Below are positions 1-9,589 of a DNA stretch of 31,908 nucleotides, one piece after another (position 1 is the stretch's first letter; each line of letters starts with the position of its first letter). Source of the stretch: a virus. Made by a program: the position numbers and the translations under genes. The notes beneath the pieces are model-generated. The model worked only from the letters and a program-made list of their open reading frames with translations. It was not told where the DNA came from and did no database searches. The stretch lies in IMG/VR virus record IMGVR_UViG_3300035162_000569, positions 1 through 31,908 of that record; one strand, given 5' to 3'.

Positions 1-115
1 CCGTTAGCCGCCGCTGGGGTACGCCATAATCCAGACCCTATCTCGGTGGTGGTTTGCGCCAATCGCGGAAGCTGGTATGCAATGCCATTCCGCGTCATAC
101 CCGATCTCGGCCAAG
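1..115. repeat. Left copy of terminal overlap (circular contig)
   Basis: Bases 7..115 are identical to 31795..31903 (offset 31788), and bases 1..5 also match. Base 6 differs (A here, C at 31794), and the match breaks after 115 because the right-hand copy lacks 20 bases lying between two copies of CTCGGCCAAG (106..115 and 126..135). The overlap is inside a protein-coding gene and joins its two halves, so I read it as the join of a circular or circularly permuted genome rather than a packaged terminal repeat. The edge differences look like assembly-end errors or population variants. Confidence 0.9.
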
Positions 116-513
116 TCTCCAAGAACTCGGCCAAGCCATCGTCCGCTGTCGCCACTAATGAGTGCTGTGACGTTTTCCATGATTGCGTATCGGGGTTGTA
201 GCTCGTCAATAAGACGGGCGACCTCACTCCACAATCCACTTCGCTCTCCATCGATTCCCGCTTGCTGTCCTGCGTTTGAGATGTCTTGGCAGGGGAACCC
301 TCCGGTAATAACGTCCGGTCTAATTCCGTCAAGAAAAAGTCTGTCTGCTGTGAGCTGTCTGACATCGTCATAAATAGGAACCTCCGGCCAATGGCTGGCT
401 AATACTTTCTGACAGTAAGGCTCTATCTCGCAGAAGGCAACACTCTCAAACCCTGCCCTTTCCAGCCCCAAGCTAAAGCCGCCAATACCCGCAAACAAAT
501 CTAGCACTTTCAT
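4..513 (-). CDS. DNA (cytosine-5) methyltransferase, N-terminal part
   Basis: This is the N-terminal ~168 residues of a Dcm-type C5-cytosine methyltransferase, which transfers a methyl group from S-adenosylmethionine to cytosine in DNA. From the ATG at 513, motif I (DLFAGIGG, residues 5-12) binds the cofactor, PCQ with catalytic Cys75 is motif IV, MENV is motif VI, and RDRVW near the end is motif VIII. The target-recognition region and the last motif are in the right-edge fragment (31450 on). The TAA at 4..6 arises from the single mismatch in the terminal overlap; the other copy reads GAA, so this stop is probably an edge artefact. In-frame upstream starts exist at 552 and 576, but they overlap the small exported protein gene, and 513 begins right at motif I. 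No strong SD is visible before 513. Likely role: protecting phage DNA from host restriction. Confidence 0.9.
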   Translation of the reverse strand: MKVLDLFAGIGGFSLGLERAGFESVAFCEIEPYCQKVLASHWPEVPIYDDVRQLTADRLFLDGIRPDVITGGFPCQDISNAGQQAGIDGERSGLWSEVARLIDELQPRYAIMENVTALISGDSGRWLGRVLGDLAEIGYDAEWHCIPASAIGANHHRDRVWIMAYPSGG

Positions 514-532
514 GCTTTTTTTATTACCACAA

Positions 533-703
533 TTAGCATAGGCGACCGTCATAATTTGGATGGCCTGCCTCACCATAAGTTGCCTGCCACAGATCGACCA
601 TTTTGCAATGATGGGCCTGAGACGCTACCGCGTCGGTGTAGTCTCCCCCGCCAACAACAGACAGGGCCAAGAATATCGCAATTATGAAAATGAAGTAACG
701 CAT
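533..703 (-). CDS. Small exported or membrane-anchored protein (56 aa)
   Basis: A short gene with a very good ribosome binding site (AAAGGAG, 6 bases before the ATG at 703). The product begins MRYFIFIIAIFLALSVVGGG, a classic hydrophobic signal segment or single membrane anchor, followed by a short hydrophilic tail with Cys33 and a terminal Cys, containing HHCKMVDLWQ and GHPNYDGRLC. Small phage proteins with a similar HC-MV-L...G-P-Y...C tail seem familiar from aquatic phages, but I know no function for them. It sits between the PAPS-reductase-like gene (ends 747) and the methyltransferase (starts 513), in the same direction, so it is probably cotranscribed. If exported, the two cysteines could form a disulfide in the periplasm; that is inference. 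Confidence 0.7.
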   Translation of the reverse strand: MRYFIFIIAIFLALSVVGGGDYTDAVASQAHHCKMVDLWQATYGEAGHPNYDGRLC

Positions 704-729
704 AAATTCTCCTTTAATAACGTTTGTTT

Positions 730-740
730 GGCATTATGCC
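730..740 (-). promoter_or_regulatory. Palindrome with CATAAT, possible -10 before the small exported gene
   Basis: On the minus strand GGCATAATGCC is a perfect 11-base palindrome that includes CATAAT (733..738), five of six matches to a -10 box. A weak TTTGCG lies 16 bases upstream, overlapping the end of the PAPS-reductase-like gene. Its position about 30 bases before the ATG at 703 would suit a promoter with operator. The -35 is poor, so this is only a candidate. Confidence 0.25.
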
Positions 741-746
741 TGCCGA

Positions 747-1583
747 TTAATCTCCGCAAAAACACGCAATGGTTTCATCTCCAGCTAGGTCTAGCTGACC
801 CTGCTCTCTGGCAATCATTTGCATTTCTGAATACTTCGGGCGGTCATTGCGCCAAGTAGCCCCTGACTGACGACTCGCAGGCACATCGCGCTCCATCCTG
901 GCCCACCAGTCGGCACTGCTTGGGTCGTCTTGAATGAGGGACTTTATTAAGCCGCCACCCTTCAGGAAGCACAGATCACAGTTTCCGCGAGGTGTCACGC
1001 CATTGACATTAGGTAGGCCAAGGTCAAATGGTTGCTCTGCCCAGAAACGACCGACTGTCTCCTTCGTGACGCCAGCGGCTACTAGCGGCCTTCTGTGAGG
1101 CTCAATCTTTGCCGCTCTGCGCTGCTCGTCTGCCCTGATGCCGACTATCGCCATGTTCTCGCCGTGGGATCGCTTTTCTGCATGGCCTATAGACCAGAGA
1201 TAGTTTGCGATCGTGCGAATCTTTAGCTCAATGGTGCAGAATCGCGCCACAGGGTTGGGTAGGTATTTCTTGGCGTTAATGAGAGCCTCAAACGGCTCAC
1301 CGTCCCTAGCGGCTGTATCGAAATCCACAATCTTCCACCTGTCCTTTGTCTCCTCTGCCCACTCATATTCAAGCCAGACAATGGGAACTTCCCAGTATTT
1401 GCCGCAGTCCCTGACAAACTCCAGTGTCTCCTCTGCCTCCTTGCCTGTATTAGCAAAGGTCACAATGCAGTCATCTGGCAGGCCGTCATTAGCCTCAATG
1501 TAGCGCCAAAGCATATAGGCGCTAGTCCTGCCCCCCGAAAATGATATGCAACTTGGCTCGTTAAGCTCGAAAACTTTTTTGAT
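747..1583 (-). CDS. PAPS-reductase-family protein (PP-loop adenine nucleotide hydrolase fold)
   Basis: This resembles the phosphoadenosine phosphosulfate reductase family common in phages. The PP-loop SFSGGRTSAYML (from about residue 15) binds the nucleotide phosphate, and cysteine motifs CTIELK, CDLCF and a C-terminal ACFCGD are visible. The first ATG in frame (1514) lies after the PP-loop, so the true start must be upstream. No ATG, GTG or TTG exists in frame after the previous stop; by alignment with the duplicated module at 1879..1912 the start codon is ATC at 1583, six bases after AGGGAG, giving 278 residues. Phage members are of unclear role: sulfate reduction, or thio-modification of nucleic acid or nucleotides, have been suggested. 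It lies just upstream of the methyltransferase in the same direction, which fits a modification role but does not prove it. Confidence 0.85.
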   Translation of the reverse strand: MKKVFELNEPSCISFSGGRTSAYMLWRYIEANDGLPDDCIVTFANTGKEAEETLEFVRDCGKYWEVPIVWLEYEWAEETKDRWKIVDFDTAARDGEPFEALINAKKYLPNPVARFCTIELKIRTIANYLWSIGHAEKRSHGENMAIVGIRADEQRRAAKIEPHRRPLVAAGVTKETVGRFWAEQPFDLGLPNVNGVTPRGNCDLCFLKGGGLIKSLIQDDPSSADWWARMERDVPASRQSGATWRNDRPKYSEMQMIAREQGQLDLAGDETIACFCGD

Positions 1584-1598
1584 GTCTATCTCCCTGTA

Positions 1599-1616
1599 AG
1601 GGCCGCTTACGCGGCA
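1599..1616 (-). repeat. Hairpin module copy 1: stop codon in GUAA loop, then SD
   Basis: On the minus strand TGCCGCGTAAGCGGCCCT forms a 5-bp stem GCCGC/GCGGC closed by a GTAA (GNRA-type) loop. The loop contains the TAA stop of the 90-aa gene. The next 18 bases carry the SD and the start of the following gene. An identical 18-base copy is at 1895..1912. Confidence 0.85.
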
Positions 1617-1879
1617 CCTTCTTGATGCACCCTAATGGCCCTTGCAAGACATCTTGCCGGTAGCCCCAGCGAGCCTGCCCAATATTTTTTGTGGGGGCCA
1701 CGTTCTTTACCAATACTTCGGATGCGAGTGGCGTGCAAATAAGCATCAGCAAGCAACTGCGCGAGATGCTCGCTATCAGCGTCAATCCAGTAATTTCGAC
1801 TTGTCTCTTTCAGCACAACTGGCGCTGGCATATTCCGCTTAACGTAATACCTGTAAAAACTTTTTGGTATGCGTATCAT
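1607..1879 (-). CDS. Hypothetical protein (90 aa), basic
   Basis: A complete small gene with ATG at 1879 preceded by AAGGGG at a six-base spacing. The product is basic and aromatic at its N-terminus (IPKSFYRYYVKRNMPAP) and C-terminus (GLPARCLARAIRVHQ), with no membrane segment or recognised domain. The C-terminal half could fold as a small helical nucleic-acid-binding domain, but that is only an impression from composition. The stop codon lies in the loop of a hairpin shared with the upstream 95-aa gene, and the gene is followed directly by the PAPS-reductase-like gene, so the three probably form one transcript. I do not recognise the family. Confidence 0.7.
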   Translation of the reverse strand: MIRIPKSFYRYYVKRNMPAPVVLKETSRNYWIDADSEHLAQLLADAYLHATRIRSIGKERGPHKKYWAGSLGLPARCLARAIRVHQEGAA

Positions 1880-1894
1880 AATAGTCCCCTTGTT

Positions 1895-1912
1895 AGGGCC
1901 GCTTACGCGGCA
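1895..1912 (-). repeat. Hairpin module copy 2: stop codon in GUAA loop, then SD
   Basis: Identical in 18 bases to 1599..1616, again with the stop codon (of the 95-aa gene, 1903..1905) in the GTAA loop of the GCCGC/GCGGC stem. The distance from the stem to the next start codon is also identical in both copies (ATG at 1879 here, ATC at 1583 in copy 1). Confidence 0.85.
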
Positions 1913-2190
1913 GTTAATGATTTATGAAGGAGCTTTGTTTCTGGCATGGTAATTGTTCGCACAGACTTATCGTTTAGTTGGCGCAAACTTGGGGCGTCAC
2001 TTTCAGCGTTTTTGCCATCCCAAAAGTTAGAGACATAAGTGCCGTCTTCTTTCAGCCAAGGCGTCCACACCCCAAGAATATCAAAGCAAGTTTTGCTTTT
2101 GTTTTTGTATTTATAAACCACGCCATAAAAATCAGCGCACATTAACTCATCGCAGGTGGTAGTAACTTTTTCGCCAATTTGATATTTCAT
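1903..2190 (-). CDS. Hypothetical protein (95 aa)
   Basis: ATG at 2190 is preceded by AAAAGGGGAAGATA, a strong SD. The product starts MKYQIGEKVTTTCDEL and looks like a small beta-rich protein (GEKV...GVVYKYKNKSK...GVWTPWLKEDGTYVSNF), resembling short SH3-like or single-domain phage accessory proteins, though I cannot assign a family. There is no signal peptide or membrane segment. It is the first gene after a 146-base gap that holds a likely promoter, so it probably heads the unit 2190 to 747. Its stop codon is in the conserved hairpin loop described at 1895. Confidence 0.7.
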   Translation of the reverse strand: MKYQIGEKVTTTCDELMCADFYGVVYKYKNKSKTCFDILGVWTPWLKEDGTYVSNFWDGKNAESDAPSLRQLNDKSVRTITMPETKLLHKSLTAA

Positions 2191-2227
2191 TATCTTCCCC
2201 TTTTATGTATTTACAAACAACACCTAC

Positions 2228-2256
2228 ACAATAACACTTCCGTTACTAAAGTAAAC
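2228..2256 (-). promoter_or_regulatory. Candidate promoter with overlapping palindrome
   Basis: On the minus strand TTTACT (2250..2255) and TATTGT (2228..2233) are separated by 16 bases, each matching four of six consensus bases. The near-palindrome GTTTACTTTAGTAAC (2242..2256) covers the -35 and resembles GTTACGTTAGTAAC at 5540..5553, suggesting a shared operator. The 95-aa gene starts at 2190. In the remainder of 2191..2336 I see no gene; 2280..2335 is GC-rich with short inverted repeats but has no clear terminator. Confidence 0.4.
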
Positions 2257-2336
2257 AAAAAGTGCAATTTATTTTAATGTTTTTTTAGAGGATAGAAAGC
2301 CGTGAGCAGGGCAGCCCATCGGGGTGGCGCTAGGGA

Positions 2337-2525
2337 TTACTCGTAGTTGGCTACGATTTGCGCGATGAATTCAGCTAGGTCAGGCTTGCTTTCGACAATG
2401 CTTAAATACCGCTCAATAGACAAGCCGCGAGCCTGCGCCAAATGATTGAACACTTCGGGGATCGCTTCGGCGTTTTCAATGTGATGCCGAATCGCAAACT
2501 TTTGCATTTCCTGCACTGGACACAT
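2337..2525 (-). CDS. Hypothetical protein (62 aa)
   Basis: ATG at 2525 follows an excellent SD (GGAGG, five bases before it) and its own extended -10 promoter at 2554..2562. The product is a short, mostly helical acidic protein (MCPVQEMQKFAIRHHIENAE...YLSIVESKPDLAEFIAQIVANYE) with no membrane segment or metal motif beyond His14/His15. A dedicated promoter for a single small gene in an otherwise polycistronic phage suggests a regulatory or host-takeover role; that is inference. I do not recognise the family. Confidence 0.7.
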   Translation of the reverse strand: MCPVQEMQKFAIRHHIENAEAIPEVFNHLAQARGLSIERYLSIVESKPDLAEFIAQIVANYE

Positions 2526-2536
2526 ATGGCCTCCAG

Positions 2537-2562
2537 AATCGTTTGATGTGACGATTATACCA
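2537..2562 (-). promoter_or_regulatory. Extended -10 promoter overlapping an inverted repeat
   Basis: On the minus strand TGGTATAAT (2554..2562) is a perfect extended -10 (TGN plus TATAAT). No good -35 is present at 17 bases, which extended -10 promoters tolerate. The start point would be near 2547, inside a perfect 6-bp inverted repeat AATCGT (2537..2542) / ACGATT (2551..2556) with an 8-base spacer, a plausible operator. The SD and ATG of the 62-aa gene follow within 25 bases. Confidence 0.6.
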
Positions 2563-2576
2563 GAAAAGTTTTTTGT

Positions 2577-2960
2577 TTAGTTGTAACTGATAATTTCATA
2601 ATCTGGGTCGGATTCTTTTTTTTGAAACTCTACTCTGTAGTGCTTGGCGATCTCCTTCCTTATCATTGCTGTGGTCCTGAAAATTGCTCTGGCTTTTTCT
2701 TGTAGCAAATCCATGTGGCCGTGGCCGTACAGCTTGACCAGCCAGTTATTAAACTCAATTGGTTGCTCAGTGAAGTACCTGTGGTGGTGGTGACATAAAG
2801 CCAAACAGTTATCCATTGACCACCTGACGCTCTTCAGTCTCCTGCCGTAAATATGAGCCGCCTCAAGTGTTTCGGTTTTGCCGCAATAACAGCAAGCGGC
2901 GTCTCTTGCCCTAATACATTTGCTGAACCAAACATCAGCCTGATCTCTTTTTACCGCCAT
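2577..2960 (-). CDS. HNH-type nuclease, NinG/Rap-like
   Basis: The 127-residue protein has a zinc-binding HNH core: CCYCG near residues 23-27, AAHIYGR with His36, then DNCLALCHHHHRYF (residues 50-63). Such enzymes nick or cut DNA at a metal-dependent His-Asn-His site. Length, the AHIYGR motif and the downstream LYGHGHMDLLQEKA helix resemble NinG/Rap-type recombination endonucleases that process branched DNA, though a generic HNH nuclease is equally possible. ATG at 2960 overlaps the end of the 62-aa zinc protein gene by 26 bases. It sits near a NinB-like gene, an annealing protein and an SSB-like protein, which fits a role in phage recombination. Confidence 0.8.
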   Translation of the reverse strand: MAVKRDQADVWFSKCIRARDAACCYCGKTETLEAAHIYGRRLKSVRWSMDNCLALCHHHHRYFTEQPIEFNNWLVKLYGHGHMDLLQEKARAIFRTTAMIRKEIAKHYRVEFQKKESDPDYEIISYN

Positions 2961-3123
2961 CGTTTGCGTGAGTCCTTGTGAATTTTCTTTCTCGACCTAT
3001 TGCTTTATCGAACGTGCCACATTGGGCACACAGCCAACCGTGAAGACTTTGCCTCACGTCTTCTAAGAAAATGGGCGCGTTGTCAGTGTTGCACTTCTGG
3101 CACTTCTTCCGGAGTAAATTCAA
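2935..3123 (-). CDS. Small zinc-ribbon-like protein (62 aa)
   Basis: The product contains two cysteine pairs, CQKC near residues 8-11 and CAQC near residues 32-35, the spacing of a zinc ribbon. The C-terminus is strongly basic (GRERKFTRTHANDGGKKRSG), so nucleic acid or protein binding is plausible. The only start that keeps the first cysteine pair is TTG at 3123, which overlaps the preceding 81-aa gene by 41 bases; GGAAGAAG just inside could also matter. Confidence is limited by this start, but the paired cysteines and the overlap with the HNH gene support a real gene. Confidence 0.55.
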   Translation of the reverse strand: MNLLRKKCQKCNTDNAPIFLEDVRQSLHGWLCAQCGTFDKAIGRERKFTRTHANDGGKKRSG

Positions 3124-3328
3124 TTATCAGTTCATCCTCTAACAAAGCATTCTGCCAAATGCCGCTAAACTCTTCTATTGTCATATCAATAGTGACGCCA
3201 TCAGGAAATGTGTCGGTGTAAACCACTGTGTGATTTTTATTACTCAAGTCAGTCACGCAGCCCCCTATCGTTGCAGGATAAAAAACAACAGCCCCATATT
3301 TTGGTAGGCGGCAAGCAATCAACATCAT
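3083..3328 (-). CDS. Hypothetical protein (81 aa)
   Basis: ATG at 3328 overlaps the stop of the phosphoesterase gene by four bases (ATGA), so translation is probably coupled. The product appears beta-rich (VVFYPATIGGCVTDL, HTVVYTDTFPDGVTIDMTIEEF) and ends in a strongly acidic tail (ELIIEFTPEEVPEVQH). No signal peptide or membrane segment is seen. The acidic end could be a protein-interaction tail. Family unknown. Confidence 0.65.
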   Translation of the reverse strand: MMLIACRLPKYGAVVFYPATIGGCVTDLSNKNHTVVYTDTFPDGVTIDMTIEEFSGIWQNALLEDELIIEFTPEEVPEVQH

Positions 3329-4485
3329 GTCCGTGGCCTCACTGTGTGCCTAGCGACCTCGCCAGACTCTTTGTGGTATGTAATAACCTTGGCCCCCCTT
3401 TGAGAAGTGTACCCGCCTCTAGCCGCATACGCATCTCTCGCTGATAGCGTTGGGTGCATTTCAGCAATTGCCCCTCCGTCTTCAATCACCCGCTCATGGT
3501 GATAGTGTCCTGTGTGAATATAACAGGCGTTAGCCTCTCCCCACATTGACCGAAATCTAGGCTCGCTGGCGAACAGCTTATGCAGGTTAGCGAGTTTCAT
3601 TTTGTGGCCGTGGTGAAATCCAAGCATAGTCTTCCCGTGTAGGTGTGCATAATAAGGGAAATCGTTGTCTATGACTGTCAGCCTGGGGTCGTCTGCAAAT
3701 AAGTGTTTCAGATATTTCCTTAGCCAGATGCTCCCAGAAATGTCGTGATTGCCCTCAGCAGACACCACCACGACTTCACCATATCGCCTGAGCATCATTT
3801 TCACTGCCTCGCTCATTACTGACATTGCGAGATCGACGAGCTTACCGTAACGAGTGTCGGCGTCTAAAATGTGGCCGCTTTGAGGTGTTACGCTGAGGAT
3901 GCCGTCCCAATGCAAAAAGTCCCCAAGCTGACAAAGCACTCCAACCCCGGCCTTTGGACTCGCTGCAATCATGTCGTGAATAGCATTTAAAAAAACATCT
4001 CTAGCAATGCCCACGTCCCAATCGTCACCAGTTTCCGCTTCATAGGCGTACATGCCTAAATGGAAATCTGTAATAGTTGTCAGCACTAGCAGGTTATCGT
4101 CTGACTGTGATGGCGCTTTGCTTGGCTTAAATTTAGGCAAACTGCTTTGCGCGTTTTCTAGGCGCTCAACTAATATTTCAAATTGACGCTGCTCATCTGT
4201 TTGGCTCTTTACCCACTGGCGTACTGGCTTGCCATCTTCATTGTAAAACGTAGAAACGCCTTTAATTTTATGACCGTCAGGGACGGGATGAAGCCAATCA
4301 TTGTCCGGACTGTAGCCCAGCCTCGCCGCTTTGTCGGTAACGGTCTGCATGTGGTATTTAACAGAGTCGCGCGTAGTGTCTAGCGCCTTGGCGGCCTGCC
4401 TCTGAGAAAGCCCCTCAATTACGATAGCCATAACAATGCTAGCTTGCTTTTCTGTCGTGCAAAATTGCAACAAGGGATGAGTCAC
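3325..4485 (-). CDS. Winged-HTH plus calcineurin-like metallophosphoesterase
   Basis: The 386-residue protein has two parts. Residues ~8-60 form a helix-turn-helix (EGLSQRQAAKALDTTRDSVKYHM), and residues ~130-386 a calcineurin-like phosphoesterase with all metal motifs: D140-F-H142, GD at 188-189, GNHD at 245-248, HHGH at 291-294 and GHYHH at 326-330. Such enzymes hydrolyse phosphodiesters (nucleotides, nucleic acid ends, cyclic nucleotides) with two metal ions. Fusion with a DNA-binding domain suggests a nuclease or DNA-end-processing enzyme acting on DNA, or a regulator with enzymatic output. The linker (about 100-128) is charged and likely flexible. The gene follows the NinB-like gene by 37 bases and overlaps the next one by 4, so it belongs to the early/middle operon. 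Substrate unknown. Confidence 0.85.
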   Translation of the reverse strand: MTHPLLQFCTTEKQASIVMAIVIEGLSQRQAAKALDTTRDSVKYHMQTVTDKAARLGYSPDNDWLHPVPDGHKIKGVSTFYNEDGKPVRQWVKSQTDEQRQFEILVERLENAQSSLPKFKPSKAPSQSDDNLLVLTTITDFHLGMYAYEAETGDDWDVGIARDVFLNAIHDMIAASPKAGVGVLCQLGDFLHWDGILSVTPQSGHILDADTRYGKLVDLAMSVMSEAVKMMLRRYGEVVVVSAEGNHDISGSIWLRKYLKHLFADDPRLTVIDNDFPYYAHLHGKTMLGFHHGHKMKLANLHKLFASEPRFRSMWGEANACYIHTGHYHHERVIEDGGAIAEMHPTLSARDAYAARGGYTSQRGAKVITYHKESGEVARHTVRPRT

Positions 4486-4522
4486 ATGACCCCCCGCAAA
4501 TCAATGGACAGCCCGAATTTTA

Positions 4523-4924
4523 TCATTTTTTGCCGAAAGGCACGCTGATGTCGTGCTTCTCCGCTAAATGCCTCGCAATAGTTTGATAAATTGTATCAAC
4601 GTCTTTTTTGCCAATGTCCTTCGTGGACACCTTACCGGTTATTGCTTCTTGTACTCGCCTCCAAATATGATCCTTCACTATTGCCATCGTTGGGGTTATC
4701 TCAATAGTCGGCTTTAAAACTTCGCGCATATCTAACCCCATTGCGGCCATTTGATTCGCTACCTCGCGGCAGTAGGCATGTATGGCTCGATTTTGCTTTG
4801 TGGTTCGGGTTGGTTGAACGATTTTAAAACATATATCTTTGTGTTTGTTTGCTTCAATATACGCCAGCAAAGCCCTGCGCTGGTCATCATTGGAAATTGA
4901 CCACCCTTCCCCGTCACTTTGCAT
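4523..4924 (-). CDS. NinB-like recombination protein
   Basis: The product (133 residues from ATG at 4924) matches the NinB family pattern: RTTKQNRAIHAYCREVANQM, then MGLDMREVLKP, a WRRVQEAITGK segment with a KVSTKDI motif, and a C-terminal HLAEKHDISVPF. NinB of lambda (Orf) binds single-stranded DNA and helps load recombinase or annealing protein in phage recombination. A longer in-frame start at 4960 exists, but 4924 overlaps the upstream gene by only 11 bases and follows GAGCGGG, so I prefer it. It works in a gene set with the annealing protein (6328..7044) and the SSB-like protein (6035..6328). Confidence 0.8.
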   Translation of the reverse strand: MQSDGEGWSISNDDQRRALLAYIEANKHKDICFKIVQPTRTTKQNRAIHAYCREVANQMAAMGLDMREVLKPTIEITPTMAIVKDHIWRRVQEAITGKVSTKDIGKKDVDTIYQTIARHLAEKHDISVPFGKK

Positions 4925-5297
4925 ACACCCGCTCCCCGTTTGCAGACATATAGCGGCCATGCTCTTGAAGCATTTTTCTGCGCCATGCCTCGCTATTCAT
5001 AAAGTCGTGAGTGATATCGTCGATTGAATCCCACTGCTTGAGCTTCCGCTTTTCTGTTTCGGCGTTGCCTGCACTGCTGAAGATGGGGGGACTCCCCCCC
5101 GTTTGATTCGCCCTCTTCAGCCAGCTATTAACAAAACGCTCAATCCCTTTTCTTGTTTTTCGCTTGGAAGGGTTGGCATCACACCAGCATGACATAGAGT
5201 CTAGCTCAGAATAGACGTCTATATCTTTATAAGCCTGCTGCCACTTGATGACCTGCTCATCCTCTGGCTCCCAATGCTCTCCGTCTTTTAAAATCAT
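4914..5297 (-). CDS. Replication-associated phage protein (127 aa), replication-organizer C-terminal-like
   Basis: Residues ~20-66 (WQQAYKDIDVYSELDSMSCW, NPSKRKTRKGIERFVNSWL) match the pattern W-x-x-AYP-x-ID-V-x-EL...NP-x-KRKT-x-x-G-x-x-RF-x-x-WL that I know from the C-terminal part of phage replication-organizer and helix-turn-helix replication proteins. Here it stands alone, and the HTH-like part may be the separate gene immediately upstream (5294..5497), as if a fused protein had been split. The rest is charged and low in complexity. ATG at 5297 overlaps the upstream TGA (ATGA). It probably helps assemble the host replisome on phage DNA; this is inference from family and context. Confidence 0.65.
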   Translation of the reverse strand: MILKDGEHWEPEDEQVIKWQQAYKDIDVYSELDSMSCWCDANPSKRKTRKGIERFVNSWLKRANQTGGSPPIFSSAGNAETEKRKLKQWDSIDDITHDFMNSEAWRRKMLQEHGRYMSANGERVYAK

Positions 5298-5497
5298 AAT
5301 GACCACTCCGCTATTTTTACGGTTTCACCATAACGGCTTTCAACTGCAACCATTTTTGTTTTTATCAAATGACCTTTCGCTCGCAATTCACTAATCCTGG
5401 CAGGCGCTTCTAGAACGCCAAGATCATTCCAAGCATTCAGCCTAGTTAATCGGTGACCTGCCTGTAGCCAATGAAGTATTCTTTTTTGCTGTGTCAT
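5294..5497 (-). CDS. Small helix-turn-helix protein (67 aa)
   Basis: From ATG at 5497 (after AAGGGGATAAAT, a strong SD) the product is MTQQKRILHWLQAGHRLTRL..., with GVLEAPARISELRAKGHLIKTKMVAV, a short helix-turn-helix/winged-helix seen as a stand-alone phage protein and as the N-terminal part of some replication proteins. It likely contacts DNA or partners the next gene product (4914..5297), with which it is translationally coupled. A longer in-frame start at 5557 would run through the promoter and palindrome region and has no SD. Autoregulation through the palindrome at 5540..5553 is possible. Confidence 0.75.
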   Translation of the reverse strand: MTQQKRILHWLQAGHRLTRLNAWNDLGVLEAPARISELRAKGHLIKTKMVAVESRYGETVKIAEWSL

Positions 5498-5523
5498 ATT
5501 TATCCCCTTATTAAATTTGAACC

Positions 5524-5553
5524 ATATAACCCTTTTTATGTTACTAACGTAAC
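5524..5553 (-). promoter_or_regulatory. Candidate operator (GTTACTAACGTAAC) and weak promoter
   Basis: Plus-strand GTTACTAACGTAAC (5540..5553) has perfect 5-bp arms GTTAC/GTAAC around TAAC. Read on the minus strand, TTACGT (5547..5552) and TTATAT (5524..5529) are 17 bases apart, a weak promoter for the 67-aa gene starting at 5497. The similar palindrome at 2242..2256 also lies about 50 bases before a gene start. The regulator could be the HTH protein encoded at 5842..6051 or the 67-aa protein. Confidence 0.4.
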
Positions 5554-5559
5554 ACAATG

Positions 5560-5843
5560 CAAGAAGTTATCAACGATGGCGAGCTATGTATGCCGTATCG
5601 AATTTTGTTATCTATCCCCACTACCTGCTCTCGGCAGCGGGAGGCGCATAATAGAGAGGGTCAACTCCGCTCTGAGGTTTTTACATTCCTCAGCCTAACG
5701 CCCGACATACTCTGAGAGATTTGCAACACTGGTGGCAGACCTTGCAATTGTGATAATCTGAACAAGTGGTGATTCTCCCCTTTCGCCACTCATTGGTCTG
5801 ACTCCTAGACTAATACCTCCCCGCCGCGAGGCGGGGTTTTTTT
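5560..5843 (+). ncRNA. Candidate structured RNA in a gene-poor stretch (5498..5841)
   Basis: This is the largest stretch without a recognised gene. On the plus strand it shows a string of possible hairpins: CTGC-TCTCG-GCAG (from 5626), an imperfect GCGGGAG...CTCCGC pairing enclosing the next segment, CTGAGG/CCTCAG with a 10-base loop (5672..5693), AGTGG/CCACT (5764..5789) whose loop contains TTCTCCCCTTT, GTCT/AGAC (5796..5810), and then the intrinsic terminator at 5819. The terminator works only in the plus direction, although the neighbouring genes are on the minus strand, so a plus-strand transcript is implied. The TCTCCCCTTT loop is complementary to the phage's own SD sequences. No promoter is convincing; TGTGATAAT at 5749..5757 is an extended -10-like candidate that would give a ~75-base RNA. 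Boundaries are uncertain. Confidence 0.4.
5819..5843 (+). terminator. Strong intrinsic terminator, plus strand
   Basis: CCCCGCC (5819..5825), GCGA tetraloop, GGCGGGG (5830..5836) and seven T residues (5837..5843). The T tract overlaps the stop codon of the convergent minus-strand regulator gene. There is no T tract in the minus direction, so it ends plus-strand transcripts. Confidence 0.85.
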
Positions 5844-6051
5844 AAGCTCCTTGCCTCACAAACTCATCTACCGACATTTCAAACTGAGATGCAAGCTGTG
5901 CAACTCGAGAAAATTTCAAGTCCTCGCTGTTACGCCATCGCGCAACCTGCACCGGATTAACTCCGATGGCTGTCGCGAGACTTTTGTTGGTTACCCTCTT
6001 CTCGGCCTGCACGCGCCGCAAAGACTGCCCGATATTAAAATGGGATGTCAT
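5842..6051 (-). CDS. Cro/CI-type helix-turn-helix regulator (69 aa)
   Basis: A compact single-domain repressor-like protein. The HTH_3 pattern is clear: LRRVQAEKRVTNKSLATAIG (helices 1-2), then VNPVQVARWRNSEDLKFSRV (recognition helix and following helix) and AQLASQFEMSVDEFV. At 69 residues it is the size of Cro-type proteins, with no separate dimerisation or cleavage domain. Its ATG lies inside the end of the ssb-like gene (17-base overlap), so the two are co-expressed. A good candidate target is the palindrome at 7558..7571, at the start of the early operon it belongs to, giving negative feedback. With no integrase in the genome, a lysogeny-maintaining role is not supported. Confidence 0.85.
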   Translation of the reverse strand: MTSHFNIGQSLRRVQAEKRVTNKSLATAIGVNPVQVARWRNSEDLKFSRVAQLASQFEMSVDEFVRQGA

Positions 6052-6328
6052 CTTCTGCTAACTCCTCAATTGGTTGTTGCTCAGGTTTACTTTCTAGTGT
6101 TTCGCGAGCCGCCTTAATTCCTTTATCGGCCTGCTCTTTCTGCACCTCGTAAGGGTCGTTAAAAAACAGCGTCCCGTCCCAATCTGGATTTGTTGGGATT
6201 AGGTCTAGCTTTGCCACCATACCTTTTTGCCCTTCAAAAAGCGCGCCTACAGTCGCATAGCGGCTTTTCGTCTCTCCGCTTTGCTCGTAGGTTCCTGTTA
6301 TTGCCCTTATGTCTTTAATCTTAGCCAT
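6035..6328 (-). CDS. SSB-like single-stranded DNA-binding protein with DDIPF tail
   Basis: The 97-residue product begins with a compact beta-rich segment (MAKIKDIRAITGTYEQSGETKSRYATVG is its first part) and ends in a charged linker and the acidic tail EELAEDDIPF. That end matches the DDDIPF tail of bacterial SSB, which recruits host replication and repair proteins. It is shorter than E. coli SSB (178 residues), as many phage SSBs are. TAATG links it to the annealing protein gene upstream, a common pairing in which the SSB-like protein covers single strands and the annealing protein pairs them. SD GGAGG lies before the ATG at 6328. Confidence 0.75.
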   Translation of the reverse strand: MAKIKDIRAITGTYEQSGETKSRYATVGALFEGQKGMVAKLDLIPTNPDWDGTLFFNDPYEVQKEQADKGIKAARETLESKPEQQPIEELAEDDIPF

Positions 6329-7044
6329 TAGCCTGTTACCTCCTTCAGTTCTCTTGCTGTCTTTTGGTCATCTTCGGTTAAAACCTCCCAAACTCTTTTC
6401 TTAAATGCCTGCGATATTTCTGCAATCTCATCAAACGTCTGTGCCAAGGCGTAGGCGTCGGCTTTACCAATCGCACTCTTTACCTCACTAACATACGCTT
6501 GAAATTTATCGTCTGCCTTCTTTACCTCTTCCGTGAACAGTTTTTTCCACGCCACTTTCTCGCCTGCGGGGGCGTCATTGTAAACAGCAATATGTCGCTC
6601 TTCACCGATTTCAACCAGCCAATCTTTTAGCGCCATAAAACTTTTAGACTCGACCATTTGCCGCGCTATCGAATAGTCGGTGACCTCTGGCAAATCTTCC
6701 CCTGCGTAAATGTACAATCCCAGCCCCATCAAGCTGATAGCCTTAGCAAGGCATCGCTGCATTGCCGTGTTTACTTGGAAAGCGTTTGGGTTGGTGATCG
6801 GTTTGTTATTATGGTCGAGCACCGGGAGGTAGGCTGTCCGCGTAACCCCGTCTACCGTGATCTTGCACCACACCATCATTGTGCCGTCAGGGTATACAGT
6901 CGGCTCTAGGTTCTCCCAAGTCGCTTCGGGGTATCGTTTCAGCAATTCTTGAACTGCAAAGGCCCAGCTTAGGTAGGTAAACTTGCCTTTTTTCTCGGTG
7001 TGTTCGTTTACATTAACCGCACTTAAAGTTTCCCATGCACTCAT
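6328..7044 (-). CDS. DUF1071-type single-strand annealing protein (Sak/Rad52-like)
   Basis: From ATG at 7044 (after AAGGGGATAAAA) the 238-residue protein begins MSAWETLSAVNVNEHTEKKG and contains the DUF1071 hallmarks: TYLSWAFAVQELLKRYPEA, a GVTRTAYLPVLDHNNKPI strand region and NTAMQRCLAKAISLMGLGLYIYAGEDLP. This family is regarded as a phage recombinase of the Rad52 superfamily that anneals complementary single strands during recombination-dependent replication and repair. The C-terminal ~100 residues are helical and charged and probably bind partners such as the SSB-like protein encoded next. An upstream in-frame start at 7104 would overlap the preceding gene more and lacks the SD. Confidence 0.85.
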   Translation of the reverse strand: MSAWETLSAVNVNEHTEKKGKFTYLSWAFAVQELLKRYPEATWENLEPTVYPDGTMMVWCKITVDGVTRTAYLPVLDHNNKPITNPNAFQVNTAMQRCLAKAISLMGLGLYIYAGEDLPEVTDYSIARQMVESKSFMALKDWLVEIGEERHIAVYNDAPAGEKVAWKKLFTEEVKKADDKFQAYVSEVKSAIGKADAYALAQTFDEIAEISQAFKKRVWEVLTEDDQKTARELKEVTG

Positions 7045-7054
7045 TTTTATCCCC

Positions 7055-7237
7055 TTAATATCCGTGAGTTTTTGATTCGTAATCGTTAGGCTCATTCGGA
7101 TCAATTTCCGGTGGCCCCTGCTCCTTTGCGTACTGACCCGCTTTTAACTTAGCCAGCGCGTCTTCAAGGTTTGCCATCGCTTGCTTTAGCTCGGCGGTGT
7201 CAACCGGCGGAATTTCTGGAATATCAAAATCACCCAT
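7055..7237 (-). CDS. Hypothetical acidic protein (60 aa)
   Basis: ATG at 7237 overlaps the end of the 102-aa gene by eight bases, suggesting coupled translation. The product has a Pro/Glu-rich start (MGDFDIPEIPPVDTAELKQA), a single predicted helix with heptad-like leucines (ANLEDALAKLKAGQY) and a disordered proline-rich end. It may be a small adaptor of the recombination proteins that follow. Not recognised. Confidence 0.65.
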   Translation of the reverse strand: MGDFDIPEIPPVDTAELKQAMANLEDALAKLKAGQYAKEQGPPEIDPNEPNDYESKTHGY

Positions 7238-7538
7238 GATTTTCTACCTCCCAGCAAACCGCCTCGCTGTTGATAATCTCATGGGCATGGCCGCCGCCAA
7301 ACCAAGTGCACTCGCCCACCTTGATTTCGTAAAACGACTCGGTGCTAACGGTGCCGTGAATTTCGTAATGCTCGACGTGCTTAATCACGTTGAAGTTAGC
7401 ATCAACGCTTTCAATTGGAACCAGCACGGTGGCGTAATCAATCCCCTTGCAGTCCCAAAGGTTATCAATGTCAGCGCCAAAGTAAGTGCAAGCACCGTCT
7501 GGCAGTGGCTCTATCGGCCTAATGTTAATTGCAATCAT
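7230..7538 (-). CDS. Hypothetical protein (102 aa), first gene of the early operon
   Basis: ATG at 7538 follows AAAGGGGAGAACTTAG, a strong SD. The protein appears beta-rich throughout (MIAINIRPIEPLPDGACTYF, then TVLVPIESVDANFNVIKHVE, and a GGGHAHEI segment). There are no membrane or metal-binding hallmarks apart from a His-Ala-His. As the first gene after the best promoter in the genome it should be the earliest and most strongly expressed, a position typical of host-takeover genes. Family not recognised. Confidence 0.7.
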   Translation of the reverse strand: MIAINIRPIEPLPDGACTYFGADIDNLWDCKGIDYATVLVPIESVDANFNVIKHVEHYEIHGTVSTESFYEIKVGECTWFGGGHAHEIINSEAVCWEVENHG

Positions 7539-7557
7539 CTAAGTTCTCCCCTTTAAT

Positions 7558-7571
7558 GTTCCACATGGAAC
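7558..7571. promoter_or_regulatory. 14-bp palindromic operator candidate
   Basis: GTTCCA-CA-TGGAAC is a perfect inverted repeat with 6-bp arms. It starts at the predicted transcription start of the minus-strand early promoter, the position where a Cro/CI-type repressor would block initiation. Confidence 0.6.
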
Positions 7572-7577
7572 GCCTTC

Positions 7578-7606
7578 ATTAAAACCTAAAAGGGCAATGA
7601 TGTAAA
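7578..7606 (-). promoter_or_regulatory. Early promoter, sigma70 type
   Basis: On the minus strand TTTACA (7601..7606) and TTTAAT (7578..7583) are separated by exactly 17 bases; each matches five of six consensus bases. The start would be near 7571, giving a ~33-base leader with SD AAGGGGA before the 102-aa gene. The divergent plus-strand gene at 7654 has only a weak promoter candidate (TTAAAG 7610..7615, TGTTAT 7633..7638). Confidence 0.7.
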
Positions 7607-7653
7607 CTTTTAAAGCACAAATTTCACAGATTTGTTATTACGGGAGAGTCAGG

Positions 7654-7869
7654 GTGGATTGGAAAGCAGACCAGATTGGCGGGGCGCACTACAAAGAAAT
7701 GAAAATACAGCCTTTGGAGTATAGCCTTGCGAACGAATTGGGGCCGTGCGAGTCGGCTGTTGTTAAGTACGTTTCTCGCTGGAAGCGCAAAAACGGCATT
7801 GAGGACTTACGAAAGGCACGTCATTACATTGAGGCTCTGATCGATTGGGAAATTAATAAGACCAAATAG
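7654..7869 (+). CDS. DUF3310-family protein (71 aa)
   Basis: The only convincing plus-strand gene. GTG at 7654 follows GGGAG by seven bases. The product carries the DUF3310 signature: IGGAHYKEMKIQPLEYSLAN, a Gly-Pro-Cys-Glu turn, then VVKYVSRWKRKNGIEDLRKA and a final amphipathic helix. Members are small phage proteins sometimes annotated as nucleotide kinase-like; the biochemical role is not established. The gene is divergent from the early promoter and convergent with the endolysin, whose end it overlaps by 17 bases, so sense and antisense transcripts meet here. Its separate orientation suggests independent timing. Confidence 0.85.
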   Translation: MDWKADQIGGAHYKEMKIQPLEYSLANELGPCESAVVKYVSRWKRKNGIEDLRKARHYIEALIDWEINKTK

Positions 7870-8212
7870 CTGGCTGCGGCAAATCTTCAGCCCAATCTAA
7901 ATGGATAAATCGACCCTCCCCGCGCTGGTTTACACCTATGCGGGGGCAACCATGCGCTAAGGCGCTCTCTAAGAGCCTGTGAGCGCGTTCGTAGCTAACC
8001 CCCACATCTACGGCAACCCCAAGGGAATGCGCTCCTACGGCGCTCTTGTGGCGCTCTAGAGGGTGGTTAAGGCAACGATAACCAGAAGTGACGGGGAGAG
8101 GGAAGCCGCAATCACGACGAATGCTGTTAAGTATAGACAAGACCGTTTCATTGAATTTATAAACACCACAACCGCACTGACAGCGCAGTTCGTCTTCACT
8201 AAAGAAGCTCAT
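7853..8212 (-). CDS. Endolysin: M15-family D-Ala-D-Ala-type peptidase
   Basis: From ATG at 8212 the 119-residue protein begins MSFFSEDELRCQCGCGVYKF and shows the M15 zinc site: H62 and D69 in AHSLGVAVDVG, and H104 in FIHLDW, preceded by a SGYRC motif (residues 43-47). It cleaves peptide cross-links or stems in peptidoglycan at the end of infection. There is no signal peptide, so it needs the holin for access to the wall. An upstream in-frame start at 8299 would overlap the holin gene heavily; ATG at 8212 overlaps its TGA (ATGA) and is preferred. Its 3' end overlaps the convergent DUF3310 gene. Confidence 0.9.
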   Translation of the reverse strand: MSFFSEDELRCQCGCGVYKFNETVLSILNSIRRDCGFPLPVTSGYRCLNHPLERHKSAVGAHSLGVAVDVGVSYERAHRLLESALAHGCPRIGVNQRGEGRFIHLDWAEDLPQPAIWSY

Positions 8213-8586
8213 CGTTTTGTAAGTAGTTGTGAGATTTTGTCTGCCCCGCGTATGCCAAAGCTGGCAAAGACTGCGAGGTATAGGAGGTATTGATACCACT
8301 CAGGCAAAGCGTTAAGTTGAGAGAACGCCAACCCCACGCGGTCAATTATATCAGGGTCATTCATTACGACACCATAGATAATGGCAAGGATTGGCAAAGA
8401 CAGAAGGATCGTAAACCACTCATCTTTCCAAGATTGGTTTGTGGCGTCTGCCATCTTAGCTTCCCAGATAGCAGTGTTAGACAATACCTGCATCTGAGCG
8501 GTGTGCTTGGCTTGAGATTTATCGCGCTGGCCTTGAAGCCAGTCAGTTACTAGCCCAGCAACAGGGCCAATTAAGGCGGTAAGCAT
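8209..8586 (-). CDS. Holin, 3TM-type
   Basis: The 125-residue product resembles the 3-transmembrane phage holin family: a first short hydrophobic segment (LTALIGPVAGLVTDWL, ~2-17), a charged linker with NQSWKDEWFTILLSLP, and two further membrane segments (about 57-75, ending in AIIYGVVM, and about 98-114, YQYLLYLAVFASFGI). Holins form holes in the inner membrane and set lysis time. It precedes and is translationally coupled to the M15 endolysin and follows the 72-aa membrane protein (TAATG), the usual lysis arrangement. Confidence 0.8.
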   Translation of the reverse strand: MLTALIGPVAGLVTDWLQGQRDKSQAKHTAQMQVLSNTAIWEAKMADATNQSWKDEWFTILLSLPILAIIYGVVMNDPDIIDRVGLAFSQLNALPEWYQYLLYLAVFASFGIRGADKISQLLTKR

Positions 8587-8804
8587 TATTGCTTGTCTGC
8601 CTTATCGTCTAGCTTTTCAAGAATCTTATCAAGCTTGCCTTTAATTTCTCCGATTTCTCTGTCGTGGGATTGGCGAGCCATGTCCGTTTCAGTACGCAAT
8701 ACCGCAAGCTGTGTTGCATGATCTTGCTGGCGCAAAAACATGAGCCAAACAAAGCCGCCTATTGGCATAACCACCCACTTCAAAACCGCTTCCATCACTT
8801 CCAT
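8586..8804 (-). CDS. Small membrane protein with coiled coil, possible i-spanin or holin accessory
   Basis: One N-terminal membrane helix (LKWVVMPIGGFVWLMFL, ~8-24) is followed by a long charged helix with heptad-like spacing (about 26-72, ending GKLDKILEKLDDKADKQ). That topology, a single anchor plus periplasmic or cytoplasmic coiled coil, is shared by inner-membrane spanins and by small holin-associated proteins. It is encoded directly before the holin and after a lipoprotein, which would fit an i-spanin/o-spanin pair, but the lipoprotein is larger than usual o-spanins. The call rests on topology and position only. Confidence 0.65.
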   Translation of the reverse strand: MEVMEAVLKWVVMPIGGFVWLMFLRQQDHATQLAVLRTETDMARQSHDREIGEIKGKLDKILEKLDDKADKQ

Positions 8805-8818
8805 GTGCCCCGCTCCAA

Positions 8819-9589
8819 TTAATTACAAGTCACTACAACTTGACCTTCGGCGTTTGCGGTTGCTATGCAGCCGCTTTGCTCAGTTGCCATCATGCCTGCG
8901 AATGTAATGTCTCTAGTTACTGAGTAATTTAGCCAATCTGAATTAGCCTCAACCAGAGCGTCCAGCCCATTCTTTCCTGACTGCCCGATCAGCGTCATGC
9001 CGTTCACGCCTAAATTAGTCAGATTGCTCATTCCTGCCGTGCCTAAGTTATTGGCAACATTGAGTCCGGTGGTCGCAATGTCTACATTTGAGTCTATCCC
9101 AGCGGTTCCCAGCGTGACCATTCCATCAACGAATGGCGCGTAATCTACGTTCCCCATAGCCGTGTAGCCAGCGGATGCGGTATTAACAAACGCCCCATAC
9201 AGAGCCTGATTGTCGGCGGACTCAGCATTAACCCGCGCTAGGTCTACTTGGCTGTTGTACTCCGCAACCTTTTTAGCAGAGTCAGCTTGTATCCACATCA
9301 TCCCCAGGGATGAAACTGGAGCGGCAAGGATAGCGCCCCACTGCAATGCTTCAGACTGTTGCGGCAATGGCTGTGCTGACTGCGTGTTAGTCATTGCCAA
9401 AGCCATCACAGCGGCACTGGCAGCCTGCCCGTCACCAGATGAAGCGATGGCAGACAGGGCGTCAAATTTAGCCTGCGCCGCAACTGCGTTAGCCTCGGCG
9501 GTTTTTTGAACCGCTTCATAGTACTGTTGGGTGCTGGCCGAACAGCCTGATAAAGAAACAAATAAAACAGCGAGTATAATTTTTATCAT
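8819..9589 (-). CDS. Lipoprotein, lysis- or tail-associated (256 aa)
   Basis: The N-terminus is a lipoprotein signal peptide (MIKIILAVLFVSLSGC) with lipobox LSGC and lipidated Cys16. The mature part is Ala-rich and helical up to about residue 120, then has a repetitive region of Gly/Ala/Asn motifs (GTAGIDSN, GTAGMSNLTN, GVNGMTLIG) and ends in a pair of cysteines (GCIATANAEGQVVVTCN), possibly a disulfide. It should sit in the periplasm or outer membrane. Placed between fibre-assembly genes and the lysis cassette, it could be an outer-membrane spanin-like subunit or a superinfection-exclusion lipoprotein; neither is shown by the sequence. ATG at 9589. Confidence 0.75.
   Translation of the reverse strand: MIKIILAVLFVSLSGCSASTQQYYEAVQKTAEANAVAAQAKFDALSAIASSGDGQAASAAVMALAMTNTQSAQPLPQQSEALQWGAILAAPVSSLGMMWIQADSAKKVAEYNSQVDLARVNAESADNQALYGAFVNTASAGYTAMGNVDYAPFVDGMVTLGTAGIDSNVDIATTGLNVANNLGTAGMSNLTNLGVNGMTLIGQSGKNGLDALVEANSDWLNYSVTRDITFAGMMATEQSGCIATANAEGQVVVTCN

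Follow-up and report, generated by a model that had tools for sequence, protein, structure and literature searches.

The genome analyzed here, a 31,908-nt (31.9-kb) virus record from IMG/VR whose whole length we call the window, belongs to a lambda-like siphophage, as judged from its terminase, portal, major head, tape-measure and J-type tail proteins. Its minus strand carries almost every gene. The subject of this analysis is the gap at 5498-5841, which lies between the start of a winged-HTH gene (5497) and the end of a Cro/C1-type HTH open reading frame (5842), both on the minus strand. An earlier note had pointed to a stretch without a recognized gene at 5498-5843, which does exist between these flanking genes, and had proposed that it encodes a single structured plus-strand RNA of ~340 nt. 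The order of minus-strand genes around the gap is Sak, a small protein, the Cro/C1-type HTH protein, the gap, the winged-HTH protein, a weakly replication-like protein (c1), a NinB-like protein and an exonuclease-type phosphoesterase. The genes closest to the gap are as follows.

6328-7104, minus strand: Sak annealing protein, part of the early gene order
6035-6328, minus strand: small protein adjoining Sak, with an acidic DDIPF-type tail
5842-6051, minus strand: Cro/C1-type HTH protein, CII-like by position (Pfam HTH_26, 1.7e-5)
5497-5294, minus strand: winged-HTH gene with its own AAGGGGA site, downstream of a four-codon open reading frame
4914-5306, minus strand: replication-related protein c1, with a weak phrog_1032 match

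The Cro/C1-type HTH protein matches HTH_26 above the cut-off and the CII-like family phrog_725 weakly (0.0015), and a relative from the same cluster matches Phage_CII at 0.015, which is below the cut-off. Protein c1 matches only the C-terminal part of the phage replication initiator family phrog_1032 (profile positions 194-275 of 281, E 0.0084); its relatives match the same family at 0.0016-0.0026, which is also weak. Because c1 corresponds to the C-terminal part of an initiator family and a separate winged-HTH gene lies beside it, the initiator may be split. Acidic DDIPF-type tails are also present on small Sak-adjacent proteins of relatives (clusters c7 and c28), and the c7 protein matches phage single-strand-binding families. 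On the far side of Sak, a DUF3310 gene on the plus strand (7654-7869) diverges from the early operon, and the interval between them (7540-7653) contains the palindrome GTTCCATGTGGAAC, which could be the operator for early promoters that diverge here.

To determine which strand of the gap is structured, we analyzed both. The stretch at 5499-5846 folds better than its shuffles on the plus strand (z -2.4) and on the minus strand (z -2.8), so the short stems described earlier are present, but once the two strands are compared separately the plus strand retains only 5765-5836, the minus strand receives 5709-5536, and most of the stems belong to a minus-strand RNA. The proposal that all of 5498-5843 is one plus-strand RNA draws on the advantage of the whole plus strand over its shuffles. 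It is refuted by positions 5725-5576, which covary as a minus-strand RNA (G-U to A-C ratio 202:4), and by the placement of the promoter of the terminated RNA at 5749-5757; we regard it as extremely improbable. What the earlier note had seen as a plus-strand sRNA with its own terminator is upheld by comparison with relatives, but is confined to the last ~80 bases (5764-5843). Its suggestion that the stretch might be a leader or an origin was a fair guess for the remainder. The sequence comparisons thus give good support to two separate RNAs on opposite strands, sRNA B on the plus strand and element A on the minus strand, of which element A is the more unusual.

Relatives of the window that were found via the neighboring proteins revealed that conservation within part of the gap exceeds that of the flanking sequence. 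In one pair (L002 and L003), 85% identity extends over 150 bases of the gap while the flanks are lost. A 23-base motif taken from the conserved part recovered at least 119 stretches of viral contigs, and element A is present in every one listed. In total, it occurs in at least ~130 IMG/VR contigs of uncultivated phages, with one copy per locus. Its features in the window are the following.

5581-5714, minus strand: element A, ~130 nt, comprising CAGAG, helices P1-P5 and a pseudoknot (alignment A1)
5709-5703 with 5595-5589, minus strand: P1, which closes element A; 5 of 7 pairs changed on both sides, 99.2% paired
5702-5698 with 5647-5643, minus strand: P2, stacked inside P1
5672-5693, minus strand: P3 hairpin; 4 of 6 pairs with double changes
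5653-5668, minus strand: P4 hairpin, loop UUGACCCU; 93.6% paired
5616-5642, minus strand: P5 hairpin, loop GAGAGCA; 5 of 7 pairs with double changes (helices 5 and 6)
5630-5627 with 5584-5581, minus strand: pseudoknot joining GAGC of the P5 loop to GCUC; 100% paired

The structure is supported by abundant compensatory changes among the 70 distinct sequences of alignment A1. RNAalifold predicts 26 pairs, 16 of which show such changes, and in the full structure named above, including P4 and the pseudoknot, 98.7% of the pair cells are standard. Double changes affect 18 pairs and 244 cells, as compared to 62.7 cells after shuffling, and pairing falls to 34-43% when the partners are slid by 1-3 columns. 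The direction of the RNA is also apparent from these data: reading the other strand would turn the 202 G-U cells into A-C mismatches, of which the minus strand has only 4, so element A is an RNA of the gene strand. The pseudoknot, which did not form part of our covariance model (R1), varies in a similar manner. Within A1, an A-U pair is replaced by U-G in 5 sequences, and outside the training set the pairings GAGU/GCUC (L219, L221) and GAGU/ACUC (L217, L223) trace a path from C-G through U-G to U-A. A second pseudoknot, between UUGAC in the P4 loop and GUCAA, is perfect in the consensus but fails in variants when A1 is examined by eye, and was rejected. Conserved coding frames are absent across element A: whichever frame and strand is read, 49-70 of the 70 sequences contain stop codons, and the length, at 134-137, changes in single-base steps and follows no triplet rule. 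The unpaired core is near-invariant.

Individual loci depart from this common form. One (L220:3212-3407, minus strand) carries an element A with an enlarged P3 arm and several extra hairpins, together with GAGA and GAAA loops like those of large structured RNAs. Seven others (L084, L086, L087, L091, L093, L097 and L216) have the minority P4 sequence ACGACGAUACYUGNGAGUG in place of GGAGUUGACCCUCU; this alternative occurs in close and distant phages, as if the arm had been exchanged.

Searches were made both with the covariance model and with sequence. For the window, R1 gives a score of 159 bits (E 4e-42). Two additional motifs, taken from the central part of the element, added 14 previously unused loci (set A3). 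R1 scores all 14 at 132-181 bits, and their covariation statistics are the same as those of A1, with the caveat that the A3 alignment was fitted to the model. None of the 4227 families of Rfam 15 matches at its gathering score, and permissive E-values (window and L102) yield sub-threshold matches only, mostly over the terminator. By blastn, four representatives have no match among phages (50,697 phage records for the stretch, E up to 1) and one representative has none among plasmids; the few alignments at E 0.7 span 28 bases and are due to chance. R1 also has no match in 369 genomes of one class, a run made without a positive control and hence uninformative, and three motif matches in bacterial genomes are due to chance, as the rest of the element is absent. 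Other Sak-bearing contigs (L006-L081) lack element A, and by annotation the gene order around Sak differs in the cultured phage Venkman and two Manatee Spring phages. By comparison with Rfam, cultured phages and plasmids, element A thus apparently constitutes an undescribed structured RNA family.

The sequence immediately downstream of element A on its own strand suggests how the element is connected to the operon.

5536-5557, minus strand: P6 hairpin with a GUUA tetraloop, downstream of element A in the same sense
5530-5535, minus strand: conserved SD-like AAAGGG (AAAAGGG), after P6
5511-5525, minus strand: possible four-codon leader open reading frame, ATG GTT CAA ATT TAA, read from the sequence

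A hairpin is found at the place of P6 in 81% of 62 distinct leaders, as compared to 2.8% of shuffles; its stems are interchangeable and its loops are mostly GNNA or CUUG. AAAGGG follows in 90 of 97 loci, and in many relatives it serves as the predicted SD of the first gene, which begins ~10 bases later. The context in relatives is fixed (Sak, SSB-like, HTH, the RNAs, c1, NinB, phosphoesterase, NinG), but the first gene after the leader is interchangeable, belonging to different families in different phages. We therefore favor element A as a cis-acting leader. Element A, P6 and the SD-like AAAAGGG together form a leader on the operon strand, with a first gene that changes from phage to phage, and element A would act within it to set expression of the replication and nin genes whichever gene stands first. 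This independence from the gene that follows argues against a gene-specific riboswitch.

Alternatively, element A might act on transcription itself. In the lambdoid phage HK022, putRNAs of ~70 nt with two stem-loops, encoded by putL and putR near the early promoters, suppress termination without a protein (PMC9378689). Element A could similarly modify RNA polymerase as a nascent RNA and suppress termination or pausing through the downstream operon. It resembles the putRNAs in being a structured, gene-independent candidate cis RNA of early transcripts in a lambda-like phage, with a single direction and near-invariant unpaired bases. However, element A, at ~130 nt, folds differently, into five helices plus a pseudoknot, and is present as one copy in the middle of the operon. 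In addition, it has no intrinsic terminators nearby downstream to overcome, as strong sense-strand terminators are almost absent within 6 kb on either side of it; this scarcity argues against a put-like function, with the reservation that Rho-dependent terminators are invisible to the scan. We consider this alternative improbable.

The plus strand presents a different picture. The features of sRNA B in the window are the following.

5749-5757, plus strand: extended -10 promoter of sRNA B, TGTGATAAT, predicted from sequence
5764-5843, plus strand: sRNA B, ~80 nt, in an oop-like position; start site placed from the -10
5765-5790, plus strand: hairpin 1, with the anti-SD loop UUCUCCCCUU
5793-5813, plus strand: hairpin 2, with the loop GACUCCU
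5819-5843, plus strand: intrinsic terminator, CCCCGCC-GCGA-GGCGGGG (5819-5836) followed by T7

The strong plus-strand terminator that had been noticed earlier is confirmed as the best on that strand in 1-9000. It is also a recurrent landmark. Across 87 distinct loci, 74 strong antisense terminators were counted in the 6 kb around element A, and 66 of these fall within 500 bases just upstream of it. The terminator of sRNA B is present in 66 of the 87 loci, and no other strong terminator is common within that distance. The relatives share the same build of a -10, two hairpins and a terminator, and the three-hairpin fold is common to them and the window, where the segment has a z of -5.7. Because the MAFFT alignment used for comparison (A2) misplaces stems, pairs in sRNA B were listed by hand from folds. 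Hairpin 1 keeps its CCCC(U)U loop on stems that vary (AUCGUAUG/CAUACGAU in L004, GUGUGGUG/CACCACAC in L105), and the stems of hairpin 2 change with compensation around a conserved (A)CUCCUA loop. The anti-SD C-rich motif is present in all 46 distinct bodies of sRNA B, as compared to 22.1 after shuffling (maximum 31). G-U cells outnumber A-C cells by 10:3 on the plus strand, which folds better than its complement in 36 of 48 cases. Although this strand evidence is weaker than that for element A, the sequence data as a whole support a plus-strand sRNA well.

The promoter assigned to sRNA B is also conserved in its -10. Six relatives (L082, L099, L105, L110, L113 and L167) retain the form TGTGATA(A)T, and most others have TGTATACT or TGTATAAT; a consensus -35 was not found, nor did a simple sigma-70 scan detect a promoter. 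Upstream of the -10, many relatives have direct repeats with a 10-bp period (match 0.416, versus 0.24-0.29 at other spacings), which are not clear in the window. Tandem repeats of this period (e.g. GGGGTGTCTA and GTTGTAACGA) abut the -10 in L128, L140, L095 and L111, and their sequences differ from phage to phage. Lambda CII binds repeats spaced 10 bp. By analogy, the repeats may be the site of an activator or repressor, possibly the CII-like protein.

These repeats, together with the neighboring genes, also bear on the possibility that element A is an origin RNA. Transcription through element A, or the RNA itself, would then prime or activate replication, the promoter of sRNA B would be pO-like, and the sRNA might matter little. 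Since element A adjoins a replication-related gene, c1, whose C-terminal match is to an initiator family, such a role has to be weighed, and the repeats beside the promoter of sRNA B could be part of it. In lambda, moreover, pO affects the activity of ori-lambda, and oop RNA itself seems to be of little importance there (PMC3985674). The c1 match is weak, however, 10-bp-period repeats abutting a -10 fit an activator or repressor site as well, and an SD-like end with interchangeable first genes is better accommodated by a leader. We judge an origin RNA to be unlikely, though less so than a put-like one. A parallel can also be drawn with ColE1, whose RNA I and RNA II are two overlapping RNAs from opposite strands. 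Like these, sRNA B and element A derive from opposite strands near a possible origin, but they are adjacent, divergent and non-overlapping.

The lambda pO precedent is also relevant to sRNA B, whose promoter and terminator might merely fire and stop, with effects limited to local unwinding, interference or insulation. The failure to find a target is in keeping with this. However, a mere terminator would need no further hairpins, and the loops are conserved, the stems compensate and the anti-SD motif is universal among the distinct bodies. That sRNA B is not a functional RNA is, in our estimate, about as doubtful as an origin role for element A, or marginally more so. The anti-SD loops suggest instead that sRNA B may resemble trans-acting sRNAs that block SDs. 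As described earlier, the sRNA has a C-rich loop, TTCTCCCCTTT (5773-5783), and this is complementary over 11 nt without a mismatch to AAAGGGGAGAA, which precedes the gene at 7538. AAGGGGA occurs 10 times, as compared to 3.5 expected; leaving aside the complement of sRNA B itself, 6 of the 8 other sites on the minus strand are immediately followed by an ATG a short distance downstream. Pairing with SDs is thus a possible role of the sRNA. Its loops are anti-SD-like in all relatives, but duplex scans of whole operons are noisy and yield no recurrent target. The leader SD, an attractive candidate in view of the CCCUU loops, was rejected, as its predicted pairing with sRNA B is no better than with shuffled sRNA B (median p 0.35).

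The other proposed role, an antisense RNA of the regulator operon, is best considered by comparison with OOP of lambda. OOP acts as an RNase III-dependent antisense RNA on the cII-O mRNA (PMC5869508, PMC3985674); its terminator is tO, its overlap with cII measures 52 bases, and it suppresses that gene (PMC5869508). Similarly, sRNA B is short and antisense, lies between replication genes and an HTH gene that is CII-like by position, and has its terminator at the end of the upstream gene, and a predicted unit of this kind (promoter motif, terminator and context) is found in the window and most relatives. In contrast to OOP, it has conserved C-rich anti-SD loops and a large structured RNA beside it on the other strand, and it lacks a sequence match (blastn, E up to 1, 50,697 phage records). 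Its overlap with the upstream gene is also far smaller, as the T-run ends at 5843 and the HTH stop codon occupies 5842-5844, leaving ~2 nt. The position suggests an antisense RNA to the regulator and replication operon, but many relatives have HTH_39 or other genes upstream of the RNAs, and with such varied upstream genes and so short an overlap, direct repression of the CII-like gene through its coding sequence does not fit. An OOP-like action could at most operate through the intergenic part of a read-through transcript, or through the SD-like loops.

Taken together, these results lead us to propose that the stretch is a control module made of two RNAs, placed where cII is followed by the replication genes in a lambda-like early operon. 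Its architecture alone, meaning the two elements with their strands, structures and operon context, is very probable from the comparative sequence data; when the proposed roles are included, we rate the whole as having somewhat better than an even chance. In this model, sRNA B, which runs antisense to the operon from an extended -10 of its own to a terminator that coincides with the HTH stop codon, would serve as a counter-transcript like OOP. As it is fully complementary to a read-through transcript between the HTH gene and element A, a duplex could form there and be processed; the C-rich loops of sRNA B may, in addition, mask SDs on phage mRNAs. Counted against the model are the absence of AAAGGG from 7 of the 97 loci, the lack of a recurrent target of sRNA B, its overlap of only ~2 nt with the HTH open reading frame, and pairing with the leader SD that is no better than that of shuffles.

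Element A has been seen in uncultivated phages, and no cultured-phage or plasmid record matched among those searched. That its unpaired core is near-invariant, that it has a pseudoknot and that it does not depend on which gene follows all suggest that it binds a general host machine. It is conceivable, at somewhat less than even chance, that element A represents a new class of pseudoknotted phage RNA whose core acts on such a machine (the candidates being RNA polymerase, the ribosome or the replication apparatus) irrespective of the gene that follows, in a module with a divergent anti-SD sRNA. The pairing of element A with an oop-like sRNA at the operon junction known from lambda suggests that RNA control at this switch point exceeds the lambda model in both complexity and distribution.
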